Of a stretch of 64,000 nucleotides of DNA, positions 45,755-55,013 are shown piece after piece. Where the stretch lies: positions 1-64,000 of the forward strand of contig NZ_JAENIO010000023.1 of NCBI RefSeq assembly GCF_016595415.1. Direction: 5' to 3'. Within the stretch, counting starts at the first letter, position 1. Every line of letters begins with the position of its first letter. The stretch comes from Roseibacillus ishigakijimensis (lineage in GTDB: Bacteria > Verrucomicrobiota > Verrucomicrobiia > Verrucomicrobiales > Akkermansiaceae). The translations under genes were made by a program, and so were the position numbers. A model generated the notes under the pieces. That model was not told where the DNA came from, did no database searches, and saw only the letters and a list, made by a program, of their open reading frames with translations.

Positions 45755-48700
45755 ATGTCATTATCCCCACCAACAAAAGAGCCCGAGGACGTCAAATGCG
45801 AAGGACCGACGATTAGTCTGACCATCGCTCCGAAGATTGGCTTTGCCTCCCAACAAAATGCAGTTCCGCTCATTCGAGAACTCGCCCTTGTCAACGAGAC
45901 CGATTCTCCTTTGGAAGAGCTGACTCTGACGCTCACTTCTCACCCGGCCATTCTTGAAAAGAAGGCTTGGAAGGTGTCTCAGCTGAAGCCGGGAGCGGTG
46001 GTCCATATCAACGATCGCCACGTTTCGCTGGATGCAAGCCTGTTAGGAGAATTGACGGAATCATTAACCAGCCAGGTGGTCCTCACGCTGAGCCAAGAGG
46101 AGAAAGTCTTGGCTCGGCGGGAAGAATGCGTTGAAGTCTTGGCCAAGAATCAGTGGGGTGGAATCGGATCCATGGCCGAGCTTTTGCCTGCCTTTTGCCA
46201 GCCCAATGAACCCGCCATCGACGGACTTTTAAAGGCGAGTTCGGAAGTTCTCCGGCGAAGCCAACAACCCGGAGCCATCGACGGATACAGTTCAAAATCC
46301 CGGAAGCGCGTTTGGCAACTCTGCGCAGCAATTTGGGTGGCGGTGCAAGAACTCAATCTGAGCTATGCGCTTCCCCCCGCCAGCTTCGAAAGTGAAGGAC
46401 AAAAAATACGCCCGCCCGTTCGCATTCTGGAAGGAGGGGTAGCGACTTGCTTGGAAACAGCCCTTCTCTTCGCTGCAGTCTTCGAACAAGCGGGTTTGAA
46501 TCCCTTCATTGTCTTGACCGAAGGCCATGCCTTTACGGGGGTATGGCTGCAACCACAAGAATTCTCCCACCCGGTAGTGGAGGACCTGGCGACCATCCGC
46601 ACCCGTCTCGAGCTCAAAGAGCTGATCGTCTTTGAGACAACCCTCGCCACCAAGGAAGGGAAACCCGGTTTTACCCAAGCTCTCGCAGCAGGTTCAGCTC
46701 AATTGAGCGAGGAAAGCTTTCATGCGGTCATTGATATTCGTCGCTCCCGCCTTCGCCAGATACACCCCTTGGCCAGCAGCGGTTCCTCCCTGATAGCCAA
46801 GAGCAGCCAAGTTGCCTCTACTCCCGACCCCGGGGTTTTGGAAACTCCGCCCGTGGATTTGCCAGCCTTTGATGTCGAAGTGGAGATTGAGGCAACCACT
46901 GCCTCGGACCGATTGGACCAATGGCAACGTCGCCTTCTGGATTTGACCACGCGCAATCGTCTCTTGCACGTTCCGGAGCGAGCGAAAATCATTCCGTTGC
47001 TTTGTGAGGACCCGGCTCAATTGGAGGATGAATTGGCGGCGGGAGATAAGATTCGACTTCGGGGCATGCCCGATCTGGAGGCTGGAGGACGCGACGTGGA
47101 CCTCTACCAAGAGCAGAACCGCGAATCTTTGCAAACCGCCCTCATCCGGGAGTGCGCCGAGCGAGGTGAAGTTCTCTCCTCACTGGACGAGAAAAAATTG
47201 GATTCCCGGCTGACCGAGATTTATCGCCAATCTCGCACAGATTTGAAGGAGGGCGGGGCAAACACGCTCTTTTTGGCTCTTGGCTTTCTCAAATGGAAAA
47301 AGACTCCAGACGACACCCGGAGTTATCGCGCTCCACTCATCTTGGTGCCGGTGACTCTGACAAGAAAAAGTGCCGCTTCGGGAATCACGATGACTCTCCA
47401 CGAAGACGAGCCGCGCTTCAATCTCACTCTCTGGGAGCTTCTACGACAAGACCTGGACCTCACCTTGCCTGGTCTGGATGGAGACCTTCCCACCGACGAG
47501 AGTGGCATCGATGTAAAGCTCATCTGGCAGAGGGTCAGGGAAGCCACCAAAGAAATGGCCGGCTTCGAAGTTCTGCCTGAAGTGATGCTGGGCAACTTCT
47601 CTTTTGCGAAATTTCTGATGTGGAAGGACCTGGTCGAGAGACGGGAACAGGTCCTCGATAATCCGGTGGTGAGTCGCTTGGTCAACTCCGGGAACGAAAA
47701 GGACCAAGCATTAAGAATGGAAGGTTTTCCCAGAGAGAGCGAACTGGACCGCGACACGCCCCCGGGCGAGATTTTTGCTCCTCTCCCCGCCGATTCCTCC
47801 CAGTTGGCGGCAGTAATCGCCTCGGCCCGCGATTTCCACTTTGTCTTGGACGGACCTCCCGGAACGGGGAAGTCGCAGACCATTGCCAATATGATTGCGC
47901 ACAATCTGGCTCTGGGTAGGCGTGTTCTCTTCGTCGCCGAAAAAATGGCCGCTTTGGAGGTTGTCTATCGCCGCCTGGATAAGATCGGATTGGCGGACTT
48001 TTGCTTGGAAGTTCACTCCAATAAAACCTCGAAAACCGAGATTCTCAAACAATTGGATAGAGCTTGGGAAAGCTCCGAGGAGTTGGCTGCGGAAGAATGG
48101 CAGCGAGAAGCCGACCAGTTGGCAAAGGTGAGAAACGATCTCAATCGCATCGTGCATTTGTTACATCGCCAGCACCGCAATGGTCTGACCATTTACCAAG
48201 CAGTGGGCCGTGTGGTTCGCGATTGGACTCCAGGCATGATTTCACTGCAATGGGAGCGTCCACAACCTCATTTGTTGGAGGAATACGAAAAGATGCGTTC
48301 CGTTTGTCGCACACTGGAACTCAATGCGGCCACCCTGAAAAAAGCTCCAGAAGAATTCGTTGCGATCTCTTTTGATGATTGGTCAAGTGAATGGCAAGAA
48401 ACGCTGATTGCCCAAGCCCGTGAGATGGGGCCGAGACTCCAAGCCCTTGTCTCTGCCTATCAACAATTCACAAAGGCAACAACTCTCCCTGCTGAGAACA
48501 GCGAGCCCGGGTCCATACTCCGCTTGCTTCCCTTGGGCCAACTTCTCCTCGCTGCTCACGGCCGTCATCTGGCGGTTGCCTTTGAACCGGGTTTTGGAGA
48601 AAAAGAAGCGAGCGCGCAAAAACTGGCAGCCTTGCTTTCGCGGTATCGCGCCTGCCAGACTCGCCTTTCCACAGACTACCCCCCTGAGGTTGAGCGCTCT

Positions 48701-51595
48701 CTCGATCTGGCGGGGATACAAGTGCGATTGGCTGAGGCTGACAAGAAGTTCCTCTTTCTCGGCAAAATGGCTCGCAAGAAAGTCGTCAAAGATTTCCAAG
48801 CCCGCACCAGTACTCCGGTAACAACCAAGATTGATCAGGACCTGATCACTCTCACAGAAATGCGCGCTCTTCTCGCGAAGATCGATCCTGAACTGCACAC
48901 CCTCTCTGGCCTTGAGGGAGTTCGCGGGCTGGAAACTGATGAAGTTGCGCTTACGGAACACCTCGAGTTTGCTCAACATCTTCGTTCCACAATCTCCTCC
49001 CTCGCACAAACACCCGATGAACTCATTGCCGTGCGGCAAGCAGTGAAAGCCCTGCTTCTTGATGCAAATGAACTGCTCTCCCCAGAGGGGCCGGTGGCTT
49101 TGGCACTGCATCACCTGCAGGATACCGCCAAAAAATATGAAGAGGTCGATTCTCAGTTTTGCAGGCTATCGGGCTTATCGTCACAAGACCTCTCTAGCGA
49201 AAGGAAACTGTCTTTGGCTCAAGCAATTTGTGAACACGAGTCTCGATTGCGGGCCTGGACACACTGGCAGGCGGCTGTCAACGAAGCCTGCCGTCTGGGC
49301 CTGAACCCCTTGGTGGAAGCGGTCCAGAAAGGCGCAGTGCAAACGGATGGAATCGTCGACCAGTTCGAGCTCTGCTACGCCAAATGGTTCGCGACCCGCG
49401 CCCTCGATGCGGATGAGGAGTTGCGGAAGTTCAACGCGGTCGAGCATCAGGATCTTATTGGGCAATTCCGAGCGCTGGATGATAAGTTCGCCGAACTGAC
49501 CACTCGCTACATTCGGGCTAAGCTCAGCGGGCAAATTCCGAGCAAGAATGAGGTCACGCGCCGCAGTGGCTATGACGTCCTCCAACATGAACTGCAAAAG
49601 CAACGCAGGCACAAGCCCCTCCGTCAGCTTGCCAGCGAGATGGGCGATGCGTTGACAGCGCTGGCTCCTTGTATGCTGATGAGTCCCCTCTCCATTGCCC
49701 AGTATCTTCCGGTTGAACAACAGCTTTTCGATCTTGTGATTTTTGATGAGGCTTCACAGATCGCACCGTGGGATGCCGTTGGCTCGGTAGCCCGCGGAAA
49801 ACATGTTGTGGTCGCAGGAGATCCGAGACAAATGCCACCAACCAATTTCTTCGGTCGCAGCAACACCTCTCAAGACGACGACTTGAGTGATGACATGGAG
49901 AGCATTTTAGATGAATGTTTGGCAGCGGGAGTGCCCCGACAAGGGCTCACCTGGCACTATCGCAGCCGTCACGAGAGCCTTATCGCCTTTTCGAACCTTC
50001 GCTACTACGATGGCAATTTGATCACTTTTCCATCGGCTGTCACCAGCGACCGGGCAGTAAGATGGCGTCGGGTCGAGGGGCTTTACGCCAAAGGAAAGGG
50101 TCGCACCAACCAAGAGGAGGCCAAGGCCATGGTGCAGGAGGTCTTAATTCGTCTCACGGATCCAGAATTTGGGCGGGCGGAGAAGTCTTTGGCCATCATC
50201 ACCCTCAATAGTGATCAGCAACGACTCATCGAAGATCTCTTGGATCAAGCCCGGCGGGAAAATCCTGCCATCGAACACTTTTTCGGCGATGACTGTTCCG
50301 AGCCAGTCGTGGTTAAGAATCTGGAGACCGTTCAGGGTGATGAGCGTGATTTGATTTTGCTGGGCATTGGCTTCGGCCCCTCCGAGCCGGGAGGTGCGAT
50401 GTCGATGAATTTTGGTCCCCTGAACCGCGAGGGGGGTTGGCGACGGCTGAACGTGGCTCTCAGCCGAGCCCGGGAAGAAATGATCGTTTTCACCTCCTTC
50501 GACTCATCCCACATCGATCTCAACCGGACCTCGGCTCGTGCCGTTCGCGATTTGAAGCACTTTCTGGAATTTGCCGAGCGAGGCCCCGAGGCCTTTGCCA
50601 TGGCGGTGGAGGGCTCCCTCGGAGGCTACGAGTCCCCGTTCGAGGAAGCTGTCGCCACCGAATTGAAAAACAAGGGATGGGAGGTGGTTCCCCAAGTAGG
50701 CGTTTCCCGTTTCCGTATTGATCTCGGCATTGTCCATCCCGACCAAAAAGGAAACTTTTTAGCGGGGGTTGAGTGTGATGGTGCCACCTACCACCGCGCG
50801 GCCACAGCTCGCGATCGTGACAAGGTGAGAGAAGAAGTTCTTTCCGGCCTGGGCTGGAATCTGGTGCGGATTTGGTCGACCGACTGGTGGTATGATAAGC
50901 AGAACTCTCTTGAAAAACTACACGCTCAACTGAATGAGCTCTTGGAGCGTTCACGCATAGAGGGATCCTCAGAGGAAGAGAAAGTTGTAGATACCGATGA
51001 AAAAAAGCGGATTTTGCCAGATGAAGCTCCCCAAGTAAGCTCGCCAGCCGAAACAGAATTTCAACATGAGCATGAGTCCGAAACGGTAGCGCGAGTGGTG
51101 GCCTATGAAGAGGCACAACTAGAGAAATTCGCAGAACAAATCTCTGCAGAACGGTTCAACGATCCCGCCTACGACACGGTTTTGCGATCCCTCATCCGGG
51201 AGCTCATTGAGGTGGAAGCTCCGATCTCAGAAAAACTGGTCGCGAGAAAAATCTCCAAATGCCACGACTTCGGACGAACCGGACGCTTGATTCGAGAGCG
51301 CATTCTAGAGCTTGCCGAACATGAATTTCCGAATTTGGAAGAGTCCGATGGAGTCTCCTTTTTTTGGCGAGACTCCGAGCATCCCGAATCTCTCACAGTC
51401 TGTCGGCAGCCTCAGGAAGGACAAACAGGGCGCCGTCTCGATGACATTCCCGCTGCGGAAATTCGGGTGGCTGCCCAAGTGACCGAAAATCCCTCTGAGT
51501 TGAGCCAACTCGCCAGATTATTGGGGATAAATCGCCTATCGGCCGAGAACCGGGAGAGACTCGCCGAGATTTTGAATCAAGCGAGACAAAATTAG
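45755..51595 (+). CDS. Hhe-like defence protein: transglutaminase-like, DUF4011, SF1 helicase, REase, DUF3320
   Basis: This 1946-residue multidomain protein reads as follows. Residues about 18-140 are beta-rich. A transglutaminase-like domain follows with a plausible triad Cys232 (ATCLETA), His258 (EGHAFTG) and Glu294 (VFETT). DUF4011 starts at DQWQRRLLDLTTRNRLLH (about 387). The SF1 helicase has Walker A GPPGTGKS at 700-707, IFDEASQIAPW at about 1329-1339, GDPRQMPPTNF, TWHYRSRHE, TVQGDERD and NVALSRAREE. A PD-(D/E)xK nuclease of the MTES_1575/Vsr-like type has Asp1656 (RID), Glu1673 (VECDG) and RIWSTDWW. DUF3320 ends the protein. This is the architecture reported for the single-gene phage-defence system Hhe (DUF4011-helicase-Vsr). 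The start is ATG at 45755; TTG at 45695 is possible. Base composition is less GC-rich than the neighbours, suggesting transfer. Confidence 0.88.
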   Translation: MSLSPPTKEPEDVKCEGPTISLTIAPKIGFASQQNAVPLIRELALVNETDSPLEELTLTLTSHPAILEKKAWKVSQLKPGAVVHINDRHVSLDASLLGELTESLTSQVVLTLSQEEKVLARREECVEVLAKNQWGGIGSMAELLPAFCQPNEPAIDGLLKASSEVLRRSQQPGAIDGYSSKSRKRVWQLCAAIWVAVQELNLSYALPPASFESEGQKIRPPVRILEGGVATCLETALLFAAVFEQAGLNPFIVLTEGHAFTGVWLQPQEFSHPVVEDLATIRTRLELKELIVFETTLATKEGKPGFTQALAAGSAQLSEESFHAVIDIRRSRLRQIHPLASSGSSLIAKSSQVASTPDPGVLETPPVDLPAFDVEVEIEATTASDRLDQWQRRLLDLTTRNRLLHVPERAKIIPLLCEDPAQLEDELAAGDKIRLRGMPDLEAGGRDVDLYQEQNRESLQTALIRECAERGEVLSSLDEKKLDSRLTEIYRQSRTDLKEGGANTLFLALGFLKWKKTPDDTRSYRAPLILVPVTLTRKSAASGITMTLHEDEPRFNLTLWELLRQDLDLTLPGLDGDLPTDESGIDVKLIWQRVREATKEMAGFEVLPEVMLGNFSFAKFLMWKDLVERREQVLDNPVVSRLVNSGNEKDQALRMEGFPRESELDRDTPPGEIFAPLPADSSQLAAVIASARDFHFVLDGPPGTGKSQTIANMIAHNLALGRRVLFVAEKMAALEVVYRRLDKIGLADFCLEVHSNKTSKTEILKQLDRAWESSEELAAEEWQREADQLAKVRNDLNRIVHLLHRQHRNGLTIYQAVGRVVRDWTPGMISLQWERPQPHLLEEYEKMRSVCRTLELNAATLKKAPEEFVAISFDDWSSEWQETLIAQAREMGPRLQALVSAYQQFTKATTLPAENSEPGSILRLLPLGQLLLAAHGRHLAVAFEPGFGEKEASAQKLAALLSRYRACQTRLSTDYPPEVERSLDLAGIQVRLAEADKKFLFLGKMARKKVVKDFQARTSTPVTTKIDQDLITLTEMRALLAKIDPELHTLSGLEGVRGLETDEVALTEHLEFAQHLRSTISSLAQTPDELIAVRQAVKALLLDANELLSPEGPVALALHHLQDTAKKYEEVDSQFCRLSGLSSQDLSSERKLSLAQAICEHESRLRAWTHWQAAVNEACRLGLNPLVEAVQKGAVQTDGIVDQFELCYAKWFATRALDADEELRKFNAVEHQDLIGQFRALDDKFAELTTRYIRAKLSGQIPSKNEVTRRSGYDVLQHELQKQRRHKPLRQLASEMGDALTALAPCMLMSPLSIAQYLPVEQQLFDLVIFDEASQIAPWDAVGSVARGKHVVVAGDPRQMPPTNFFGRSNTSQDDDLSDDMESILDECLAAGVPRQGLTWHYRSRHESLIAFSNLRYYDGNLITFPSAVTSDRAVRWRRVEGLYAKGKGRTNQEEAKAMVQEVLIRLTDPEFGRAEKSLAIITLNSDQQRLIEDLLDQARRENPAIEHFFGDDCSEPVVVKNLETVQGDERDLILLGIGFGPSEPGGAMSMNFGPLNREGGWRRLNVALSRAREEMIVFTSFDSSHIDLNRTSARAVRDLKHFLEFAERGPEAFAMAVEGSLGGYESPFEEAVATELKNKGWEVVPQVGVSRFRIDLGIVHPDQKGNFLAGVECDGATYHRAATARDRDKVREEVLSGLGWNLVRIWSTDWWYDKQNSLEKLHAQLNELLERSRIEGSSEEEKVVDTDEKKRILPDEAPQVSSPAETEFQHEHESETVARVVAYEEAQLEKFAEQISAERFNDPAYDTVLRSLIRELIEVEAPISEKLVARKISKCHDFGRTGRLIRERILELAEHEFPNLEESDGVSFFWRDSEHPESLTVCRQPQEGQTGRRLDDIPAAEIRVAAQVTENPSELSQLARLLGINRLSAENRERLAEILNQARQN

Positions 51596-51751: not shown

Positions 51752-52159
51752 TTGAACGCCTGTCGGTCCATTTTGCTTCTCATCGGTTGCCTCCACGTGG
51801 CAGTGGGGCCGATGAATATGCTGCAGATTATCGCCTGGACCGGGATGCTTCTCGACAATTCGCGCGAGAACTCGATGGCCGACGCCATTGAGATGACTTT
51901 CGATGGCAGCAAGCCTTGTGGCCTTTGCTGCGCCATCGCAGAAGCCAAGGAGCAGAAAAAGGAAGATCCGCTCGCACCGGCTCCCAGCGAAGGCCGCGAT
52001 CAATTGCGCCTCGATCTCTTCCCCTCCTCCGACCCGAAAGCCCAATCGGGTCGCTCTTTCCGGCTGCAGGCCGGTCCACCCGCCGGTGAGCAGGTGGCCT
52101 TTTGGGCGGAGCATGTGGCCAGCGTGCCCTCTCCCCCACCCCAGCGGGCTGCGGTCTAA
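51752..52159 (+). CDS. Small exported Cys-motif protein (FDGxxPCxLC)
   Basis: This 135-residue protein of a type I associate with Verrucomicrobia and relatives begins with a hydrophobic stretch (SILLLIGCLHVAVGP), then WTGMLLDNSRENS, then the signature FDGSKPCGLCCAIAEAKEQK with three cysteines, and a Pro-rich tail. The signature suggests metal or disulfide chemistry at the membrane surface, but no activity is known to me. TTG at 51752 supplies the signal-like segment; ATG at 51812 is the alternative and would remove it. It lies upstream of a di-haem cytochrome, a PEP-CTERM protein and a His-rich barrel on the same strand. Confidence 0.55.
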   Translation: MNACRSILLLIGCLHVAVGPMNMLQIIAWTGMLLDNSRENSMADAIEMTFDGSKPCGLCCAIAEAKEQKKEDPLAPAPSEGRDQLRLDLFPSSDPKAQSGRSFRLQAGPPAGEQVAFWAEHVASVPSPPPQRAAV

Positions 52160-52381: not shown

Positions 52382-52412
52382 CCTCTTGGGATCCTTGCTT
52401 TTTCCTTTCTCT

Positions 52413-55013
52413 ATGAAACCGATTTTCTTTTTGCTCACTATCCTTGGCGGAATGGGAGTGGCTCACGGCGAGCCGCTCTTCGAATCCCGCCCCGTCCACC
52501 CCCTCGCCATCAATGCGGAAGGAACGCGACTCTATGCGGTCAATCCGGCGGAAGGCCGTCTCTCCATTTTCGCCCTGGGCGGAGAGGAGCATCCTGCCCC
52601 CAGCCTCTTTGCCGAAGTGCCGGTGGGGCTCCTGCCGGTGACCGTGCGCCTGCGCAATGAGGAAGAAGCCTGGATCGTCAATGAGCTCTCGGACAGCATC
52701 ACCATTCTCTCCCTTCCGGATCACCGCACGCTGGCGACCATCGCGACCGGGGATGAGCCCGCCGATGTCGTCTTCGCCGACGGAAAGGCCTTCGTCACCT
52801 GCTCGCGGGACCATTCCGTGCGGGTCTATGATGCCGACTCGCGGGAGGAACTCGCTATTCTGCGCTTGGAAGGCTTGCTGCCCCGCGCCTTGGCGGTGAG
52901 CCACGGGGGGGACAAGGTCCACGTCGCCTTTCTCCACACCAGCAATGGCACCACCATCCTCCCCCGCACGGAGGCTCCCGCCCAAGAGCCGCCCGCCTAC
53001 ACCGACCCCACCCTCCCCGAGCCTCCACAGGTGGCCCAGATTGTCAGCACCGAGCACCCCGATATCGACTACGAGGTTCTCGACCACGACATCGCCACCA
53101 TCGATAGCGACAATTTGTCGATTTCTTACACGGGAGGAATCGGCACCAATATCCTCGCCCTAGCGACTACGGAAGACAACACCCTGCTGGCGGCCAACTC
53201 CGAGGCCCGCAATCTCATCCCGTTCGAGAGCGAACTGCGCGGACGATTTGCGATCAGTCGCTTGGGAATTCTCCGCGCGGACGGCTTCGGCGACATCACC
53301 CTCAACCCCGACCCCGACGGCATTTTTCCCAACATCGATACCACTGCTGCCGACACCGCCCTGGCACAACCCATGGCCGTTCTACCGGTCACCAACGAGA
53401 AAGCCTATCTCGCCGCCTACGGCTCAGACCGTATCGCCCTCATCGACCTGCCTACCGGCACCCTTGATTGGCGGGTCGACCTCCGCATGAACGACGACCC
53501 CGAGGCTCCGCGCGGGCCCCTCACCGTGCGCGGTCCACGCGGCCTGGCCGTCCATCCCAGCCAACCGCGCCTCTATGTTTTCAACAAGCTTTCCCACACC
53601 CTATCCACGATTGACACCGTAGCAAAAGAAGTGATCGCGGAAGTCGGTCTCGCGACCTTCCCCGACCTCGCCAGCGACCTCAAGATTGGCCGTGCCCTGC
53701 TCCAGGACGCCCGTCTCTCGGGCAATGGTTCGGTCTCCTGCGCCAGTTGCCACATCGATCTCGAGCGCGATGGCATTGCCTGGAACTTGGGCGACCCCTT
53801 CGGCGAAATGCAGACCATCCCCGGAGCCCTGCGCTCGCTGCATGAGAACGACACCTATGTCAACCGCACCTTGCACCCCTTGAAAGGGCCCATGATCACG
53901 CAAACCCTCATCGGCCTCAGCGACCAAAGCAAGCTGCACTGGCGGGGGGATCGGGCCCGCATCCAGGACTTCAACCCCACCTTCGACAAGCTGATGGGGG
54001 GGAGTGAAATTCCCGCAGCGGAGATGGACAAAATCGCCGACTATCTCCTCGCCCTCCGTCATCACCCCAATCCCCGGCTCAATCCCGACCGAAGCTTTCC
54101 CGCTGAAATCGAAGGGGGCGATCCCCTGGCGGGTCTGCTCGTTTTTACCAAATTCGAGAACCATTGCGCGGCCTGCCACAGCCTGCCCTCGGGCACTTCC
54201 AACAATCTCGACATTCCCTCCACCTTCGGTTCCTTTCAGCCCCTCAAGGATGCCCCCTTGCTCACCCTTGAGCATCGTCGCCACTTCGACAATCGTCCGG
54301 GCGCCCGCAACGTCACCGGCTTTGGGCTTCTCTCCGACGGCACCGGAGCCGGACATGAGTTCCCCATCGTGCACCCCTATTCCCTGCATGAACTGGACGA
54401 TGTCGACCGCCCGGCCTCCGTGCGAGCCAAGGAAAAGCGCGACCTCACCGCCTTTCTCCTCGCCTTTGACAACGGCACGGCCCCGGCGGTGGGGCAGAGC
54501 GCAACCTTCACCCCCGGGGAAGGGGCCGATCCCAGCAAGCAAGCGCGCGTGGAGCTCCTGCAGACCCTGGCCGGAAATGAGATGACTTCCACCGGGCTCA
54601 TCGCGCGGGGCCACTGGCAGGGAGAGCGGGCGACCTTTTTTTACCAGCCCGAGAGCGGAGGCTATCAAGCTCCCGACCAAGAGGGAGAGTTCACTCTCGC
54701 CGATCTCTTGAGCGGACTCACCCCCGGAGATAGCCTGACCTTCCTCGGGGTGCCGGTAGACTCTGCCCGACGACTCTCCATCGATCGCGATGGCAATGGT
54801 CTCCCCGACCGCGGGGACGCCCCCGCGCTCATTCTAAACAACCAGCTCCTGCGCTGGCCAACCACCCGACCGGGCTGGACTCTGCATCACTCCCGCGATC
54901 TGAGGGACTGGCAGCCCTTTACCGCTCCGGTCCACTCAGACAGCGAGCACTATCTGGCCCCTGCCGACACGCCGGATGACCGCCAATTTTTCCTCCTCCA
55001 GCGCCGCTGGTAA
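52413..55013 (+). CDS. Exported beta-propeller fused to di-haem cytochrome c peroxidase-like domain
   Basis: This 866-residue periplasmic protein has a signal peptide ending VAHGEP. Residues about 25-420 form YVTN-type propeller blades (HPLAINAEGTRLYAVNPAEG, later RGLAVHPSQPRLYVFNKLS). The second part resembles MauG/cytochrome c peroxidase-type di-haem proteins, with haem sites CASCH at about 449 and CAACH at about 588, and GPMITQTLIGL and FGLLSDGTG between and after. The last 60 residues form a beta module ending DDRQFFLLQRRW. MauG-like proteins oxidise partner proteins or peroxides. Neighbours are a Cys-motif protein, a PEP-CTERM protein and a His-rich barrel; a metal-handling role as in MbnH/MbnP pairs is speculation. 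ATG at 52413 begins the signal peptide. Confidence 0.85.
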   Translation: MKPIFFLLTILGGMGVAHGEPLFESRPVHPLAINAEGTRLYAVNPAEGRLSIFALGGEEHPAPSLFAEVPVGLLPVTVRLRNEEEAWIVNELSDSITILSLPDHRTLATIATGDEPADVVFADGKAFVTCSRDHSVRVYDADSREELAILRLEGLLPRALAVSHGGDKVHVAFLHTSNGTTILPRTEAPAQEPPAYTDPTLPEPPQVAQIVSTEHPDIDYEVLDHDIATIDSDNLSISYTGGIGTNILALATTEDNTLLAANSEARNLIPFESELRGRFAISRLGILRADGFGDITLNPDPDGIFPNIDTTAADTALAQPMAVLPVTNEKAYLAAYGSDRIALIDLPTGTLDWRVDLRMNDDPEAPRGPLTVRGPRGLAVHPSQPRLYVFNKLSHTLSTIDTVAKEVIAEVGLATFPDLASDLKIGRALLQDARLSGNGSVSCASCHIDLERDGIAWNLGDPFGEMQTIPGALRSLHENDTYVNRTLHPLKGPMITQTLIGLSDQSKLHWRGDRARIQDFNPTFDKLMGGSEIPAAEMDKIADYLLALRHHPNPRLNPDRSFPAEIEGGDPLAGLLVFTKFENHCAACHSLPSGTSNNLDIPSTFGSFQPLKDAPLLTLEHRRHFDNRPGARNVTGFGLLSDGTGAGHEFPIVHPYSLHELDDVDRPASVRAKEKRDLTAFLLAFDNGTAPAVGQSATFTPGEGADPSKQARVELLQTLAGNEMTSTGLIARGHWQGERATFFYQPESGGYQAPDQEGEFTLADLLSGLTPGDSLTFLGVPVDSARRLSIDRDGNGLPDRGDAPALILNNQLLRWPTTRPGWTLHHSRDLRDWQPFTAPVHSDSEHYLAPADTPDDRQFFLLQRRW

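Follow-up and report, generated by a model that had tools for sequence, protein, structure and literature searches.

A stand-alone ProA-family gene with signs of horizontal acquisition encodes an SF1 helicase, a Vsr-like nuclease and a conserved, probably catalytic transglutaminase-like domain

Giant proteins that combine a HEPN domain, a transglutaminase-like peptidase, an SF1 helicase, a Vsr-family nuclease and a wHTH in one chain, and that are not accompanied by a methylase, were described by Anantharaman et al. in 2013 (PMC3710099). The wHTH of these proteins overlaps DUF3320, and it was suggested that the transglutaminase domain contributes an additional layer of defence by cleaving proteins (PMC3710099). 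The architecture discussed here has been known since that work, which also proposed the same defence logic (PMC3710099); what the transglutaminase-like domain does was merely guessed at. Two curated NCBIfam models are relevant here, NF058533 (‘anti-phage protein ProA’; cut-off 1500 bits) and NF042953 (Hhe; cut-off 2000 bits), and PADLOC holds a further phage defence candidate, PDC-S37. A limited literature search did not find the publication behind the name ProA.

We analysed a 64-kb window of the Roseibacillus ishigakijimensis draft genome (the whole stretch, 64,000 nucleotides), for which a first-pass annotation had proposed a solitary Hhe-like defence gene bearing an N-terminal transglutaminase-like triad. 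The gene is one open frame (Table 1). It could also start at an in-frame TTG, and no clear ribosome-binding site was found before either the ATG or the TTG. The 4.1 Mb draft genome contains no second copy. A small ORF of 135 aa (51752-52159) with no Pfam match lies immediately downstream and is a possible neighbour gene. The domains listed in the first-pass annotation, DUF4011, SF1 helicase, Vsr-like nuclease and DUF3320, were all recovered as Pfam matches that pass their cut-offs, AAA_19 barely so (AAA_30/AAA_19 match at approximately residues 682-738). The nuclease match lies far above its cut-off of 38.2 bits, with all three putative catalytic residues present, and the Walker A and DEAS motifs together with the AAA_11/12 match identify the helicase as SF1.

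Table 1 Features of the ProA-family gene and its product (nucleotide positions in the 64-kb window)
Feature	Position	Strand	Basis or remark
ProA-family gene (NF058533)	45755..51595	+	1946 aa, ATG start; alternative start TTG 45695
N-terminal beta-sandwich domain, residues 19-128	45809..46138	+	AlphaFold2 model and structure search
Transglutaminase-like cysteine peptidase-fold domain, residues 133-335	46151..46759	+	AlphaFold2 and structure search
C232, predicted nucleophile, N-terminus of helix 232-245	46448..46450	+	68/72 homologues; model position
H258, predicted catalytic base, start of strand 258-264	46526..46528	+	69/72 homologues; model
E294, predicted third triad member (Asp in L109)	46634..46636	+	68/72 homologues
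DUF4011, residues 393-563	46931..47443	+	Pfam PF13195, 158 bits
Walker A GPPGTGKS, residues 700-707 (K706), SF1 helicase	47852..47875	+	Alignment; Pfam AAA_30/AAA_19
SF1 helicase C-terminal part, residues 1274-1580, DEAS 1331-1334	49574..50494	+	Pfam AAA_11/AAA_12; Sen1/SMUBP-2 in PDB
Vsr-like nuclease MTES_1575, residues 1629-1726; putative catalytic D1656, E1673, D1675	50639..50932	+	Pfam PF18741, 120.7 bits
DUF3320 (winged-helix region), residues 1800-1848	51152..51298	+	Pfam PF11784, 44.5 bits; wHTH per PMC3710099

The ProA model matched the window protein almost from end to end, at 2148.8 bits (residues 30-1926 against profile positions 2-1902 of 1903), well above its cut-off. The Hhe model, to which a curated Hhe from a Klebsiella plasmid scores 2735 bits, gave 834.6 bits and thus stayed below its cut-off. 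The window protein has 392 residues ahead of DUF4011; the curated Klebsiella Hhe has 21 residues ahead of the position equal to window residue 385, and a transglutaminase profile found no match in it, so that the comparison with Hhe for the same N-terminal domain, which the first-pass annotation had recommended, came out negative. We therefore rejected filing the protein under Hhe: the score is below the curated cut-off, and Hhe lacks the N-terminal transglutaminase-like part. ‘Hhe-like’ holds for the residues after approximately 385 and fails for the protein as a whole, which belongs to ProA. Likewise, the extra N-terminal domain is real, but it is a standing part of the ProA family rather than an oddity of this protein. 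We conclude from the profile matches that the window protein is an ordinary, intact, full-length member of an already named family.

Residues 1-392 matched neither a Pfam family nor a phage family in PHROGs. An AlphaFold2 model of these residues, built with the family alignment (pLDDT 91.6, pTM 0.88), consists of a beta-sandwich followed by an alpha/beta domain, with a linker after residue 340 predicted at low confidence. In fold, the beta-sandwich resembles Ig-like domains, including the C-terminal beta-sandwiches of animal transglutaminases. Because beta-sandwich matches filled the first fold search, the alpha/beta domain was also modelled alone (pLDDT 94.9, pTM 0.92). Its top solved neighbours, aligned over 118-173 residues at rmsd 3.1-4.8 and Z 6.5-9.1, were nearly all of the transglutaminase-like superfamily: axonemal transglutaminase-like proteins (Z 9.1), PNGase (1x3w, 3esw; Z 9.0), TGase (4xz7; Z 8.3), TG2 (3s3j; Z 8.1), the endoisopeptidase PeiP (8z4f; Z 8.0) and LapG (4fgq; Z 7.9). 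The Z values are only moderate and lie close together, and Foldseek E-values against the PDB were only ~0.006. Given that nearly all listed neighbours belong to one superfamily, and that the sequence motif and its position agree with this, we predict with high confidence that residues 133-335 fold as a transglutaminase-like domain, as the first-pass annotation had supposed.

Cys232, His258 and Glu294 are found where that annotation had placed them, and supply the Cys-His-Asp/Glu triad of the transglutaminase-like superfamily. In the model they occupy a helix start, a strand start and a position just past a strand, respectively. In an alignment of 72 sequences at <85% identity, the window's included, each is kept in nearly all homologues (Table 1), and the departures visible in the alignment come mainly from three divergent copies in the window's own family. 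The residue following C232-L233 is Asp in 70 of the 72 and Glu in the window protein. A distant homologue, L109, has ‘FDPT’ where the others have ‘FETT’, which places Asp-Pro-Thr, the classical transglutaminase Asp motif, at E294. In a second alignment, restricted to the transglutaminase-like domain, the Cys and His are invariant in 55 sequences and the Glu is kept in at least 90%. Neither of the outcomes set beforehand as telling against the domain, an unconserved triad or a segment folding otherwise, was found. Rad4 and XPC, which are non-catalytic, DNA-binding relatives, are among the solved neighbours (Z 7.5-8.2), and the domain could by analogy be a sensor or nucleic-acid-binding platform that leaves the nuclease as the sole effector. 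However, such a platform does not account for an invariant Cys and His, and the conservation pattern leads us to favour a catalytic domain over a sensor.

Which reaction such a domain would catalyse is a separate question. The transglutaminase fold also serves transamidases, N-acetyltransferases and glycanases, as well as the non-catalytic DNA-binding domain of Rad4/XPC, and this range weakens a reading as peptidase. The peptidase reading is supported to some degree by more distant relatives of the domain: they retain the Cys-His-Glu motif, and the gene of one such relative shares an operon with caspase-, clostripain- and subtilisin-family genes. The domain might instead be a transamidase, deamidase or acyltransferase that cross-links or modifies its target. 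Transglutaminases and arylamine N-acetyltransferases among the Foldseek/VIA matches, including an entry (4dmo) titled with a Cys-His-Glu triad, would suit such a modifier, but several of the best matches, namely PNGase, PeiP and LapG, are hydrolases, and the peptidase-rich operon includes the gene of a wider relative. The argument from hydrolase matches is itself weak, since Z differences amount to ~1 unit; we nevertheless regard a modifying enzyme as rather improbable. Overall, sequence conservation and the predicted fold indicate that the protease-like part is real and conserved, and probably catalytic.

Two sets of wider relatives deserve description in their own right. A genome of the same order carries an operon-like run (L112, 210-10907 of G066:C14:80000-95000) that encodes caspase-family, DUF5675/lysozyme-like and clostripain-family proteins, a 764-aa protein, a YdjC-like protein and a subtilase. 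The 764-aa protein has a ProA-type transglutaminase-like domain that keeps the Cys-His-Glu motif, with a weak CHAT match ahead of it, and the run looks like a multi-protease conflict system. Further relatives (L113-L119) are free-standing ORFs of 394-620 aa with the motif [GAN][TN]C...GH...ETT, and those scanned against Pfam gave no match or a weak match only.

We next consider the origin of the gene. Its GC content of 54.5% compares with 60.8% in the remainder of the window and is near the lowest among window stretches of equal size (minimum 0.543, mean 0.603, sd 0.019); GC3 is 58%, compared with 71-78% in six other genes. The ProA model scored above cut-off in 28 of 288 genomes of the window's phylum, and a genome collection yielded 80 further loci, mostly from Alphaproteobacteria. 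A sister sequence on Klebsiella/Raoultella IncF plasmids is 49% identical over 99% of the length (60% in the transglutaminase part). In a tree of the helicase columns, its pairing with the window sequence is supported (SH-aLRT 98), and most ProA copies of the same phylum, as well as those of the same family, branch away. The congeners G237 and G240 have weak partial matches to the ProA model and nothing stronger. The low GC and GC3 and a sister on plasmids outside the phylum make horizontal gain of the gene well supported, in agreement with what the first-pass annotation had read from composition. As for marks of insertion, the repeats around the gene are only short or imperfect pairs, none of them a convincing direct repeat flanking it; one tRNA lies far away; and no clean empty site was found in the congeners, whose flanks are only partly collinear. 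In one congener, an MvaI/BcnI-type restriction enzyme, a C5 methylase and a Vsr endonuclease (L147, G237:C15, 4863-8084) lie ~5 kb upstream of the homologue of window gene 52386-55013, that is, in the flank that holds the ProA-type gene in the window. This shared flank is possibly a defence-prone site.

The gene might alternatively be a housekeeping or decaying helicase gene with no defence role, as could be suggested by its surroundings: no other defence gene adjoins it in the 64-kb window, and the genes around it encode sulfatases, a GH43 enzyme and a cytochrome c peroxidase-like protein. However, none of the catalytic motifs is damaged, both composition and phylogeny mark the gene as foreign, and its homologues occur sporadically, in many cases on plasmids and close to mobile or defence genes. 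Those on plasmids adjoin integrases, insertion sequences, SIR2/ATPase, AbiJ-like, restriction, VapBC, multiubiquitin/ThiF and toxin-antitoxin genes. We therefore judge a housekeeping role very improbable indeed. No partner gene is constant among the homologues, which suits a single-gene system, and the solitary nature claimed for the gene at first pass holds up.

Taken together, the ProA family match, the intact Walker A, DEAS and nuclease D/E/D motifs, the predicted fold, the conservation of the triad, the plasmid context and the 2013 proposal point to a horizontally acquired, stand-alone defence protein in which a helicase licenses two effectors. The SF1 helicase core, with DUF4011 and the winged-helix DUF3320, would recognise invading nucleic acid and move on it, and this ATP-driven engagement would license both effectors of the same chain: the C-terminal Vsr-like nuclease, which would cut invading DNA, and the N-terminal Cys-His-Glu domain, which would cleave a protein of phage or host, with an anti-phage effect as the presumed outcome. 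We give this interpretation somewhat better than even chances.

Natural variants bear on how the two effectors relate. In a survey of 93 sequences at <90% identity, the triad, helicase motifs, nuclease D/E/D and DUF3320 are all intact in 67. Six loci (L013, L019, L020, L021, L024 and L162) have Val, Ile or Asp in place of the putative catalytic Glu of the nuclease and an intact triad. On the tree of helicase columns, the Glu changed at least four times with the triad kept: in L024, in L019, in L013, and in a clade of the Acinetobacter locus L162 with L020/L021. Conversely, six other loci (L022, L023, L027, L028, L029 and L157) begin just ahead of DUF4011 and retain the nuclease Glu; no frame of these loci gave a transglutaminase match. 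L125, L128, L129 and L032 were not counted as losses, because their sequences are either truncated at contig or locus ends or interrupted by a frameshift. It appears from these alignments that the putative nuclease and transglutaminase sites have been lost independently of each other, a point that is new here, and that either module can be missing while the other stays. We read this as a sign that one helicase carries two separable effectors; the pattern suits that arrangement better than a nuclease with a structural add-on, although the cases are few and loss of activity is itself deduced from residue changes.

The same variants bear on the alternatives. If the nuclease were the only effector, the triad would not be expected to have persisted, at least four times, in forms with a degraded nuclease, and although transglutaminase-less forms with an intact nuclease would suit a sensor platform, we consider the sensor unlikely. 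The domain might also cut its own chain after helicase engagement, freeing the nuclease or another part, as would fit its presence on the same chain, its cysteine peptidase fold and the low-confidence linker. However, sequences with a degraded putative nuclease site still have the triad, so the domain must do more than free the nuclease, and we find autoprocessing decidedly improbable. A more radical possibility, which we hold only tentatively, is that ProA is a nucleic-acid-activated protease first and a nuclease second: the helicase would sense invading DNA and turn on the transglutaminase-fold protease, which alone would suffice for defence. This would explain the repeated loss of the nuclease Glu, often along with DUF3320, with an intact triad on Acinetobacter plasmids and in several genomes of the window's phylum. 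Our preferred reading remains that of two effectors licensed by one helicase.

Two groups of variants deserve mention. ProA-type genes on several Acinetobacter plasmids (L154, L161 and L162), with an intact triad, a Glu-less nuclease site and no DUF3320, adjoin a large integrase and a WYL/ThiF gene set. In L025, L026 and L030, from the window's own family, both the triad and the nuclease site are degraded and Walker A and DEAS are intact, so either effector may be dispensable or the genes may be decaying, which counts against the reading of two effectors; decay or another use of the helicase may apply.

A large, often plasmid-borne defence family thus appears to carry a conserved, probably catalytic protease-like domain, and the existence of natural variants lacking either the putative nuclease site or the protease-like domain allows direct comparison. 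If the proposal is true, a helicase triggering a protease would be an uncommon response to foreign DNA.

Compared with described systems, the window protein is closest to ProA (NF058533), which it matches over its full length and in all domains; nothing sets it apart. With the MTES_1575 type of 2013 it shares the transglutaminase-like peptidase, SF1 helicase, Vsr-family nuclease and wHTH, and the absence of a methylase. That type, however, has an N-terminal HEPN RNase domain, for which Pfam gave no match in the window protein; the AlphaFold2 model has a beta-sandwich there (residues 19-128). PDC-S37 of PADLOC matches at 1217 bits over residues 383-1943, alongside a weaker PADLOC Hhe match, but its model begins at DUF4011 and omits the transglutaminase part. 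Hhe (NF042953; PADLOC Hhe) has homologous DUF4011, SF1 helicase and Vsr-like nuclease regions, with 39% identity over residues 1165-1729, but unlike the window protein it starts ~21 residues before DUF4011, with neither the beta-sandwich nor the transglutaminase-like domain.
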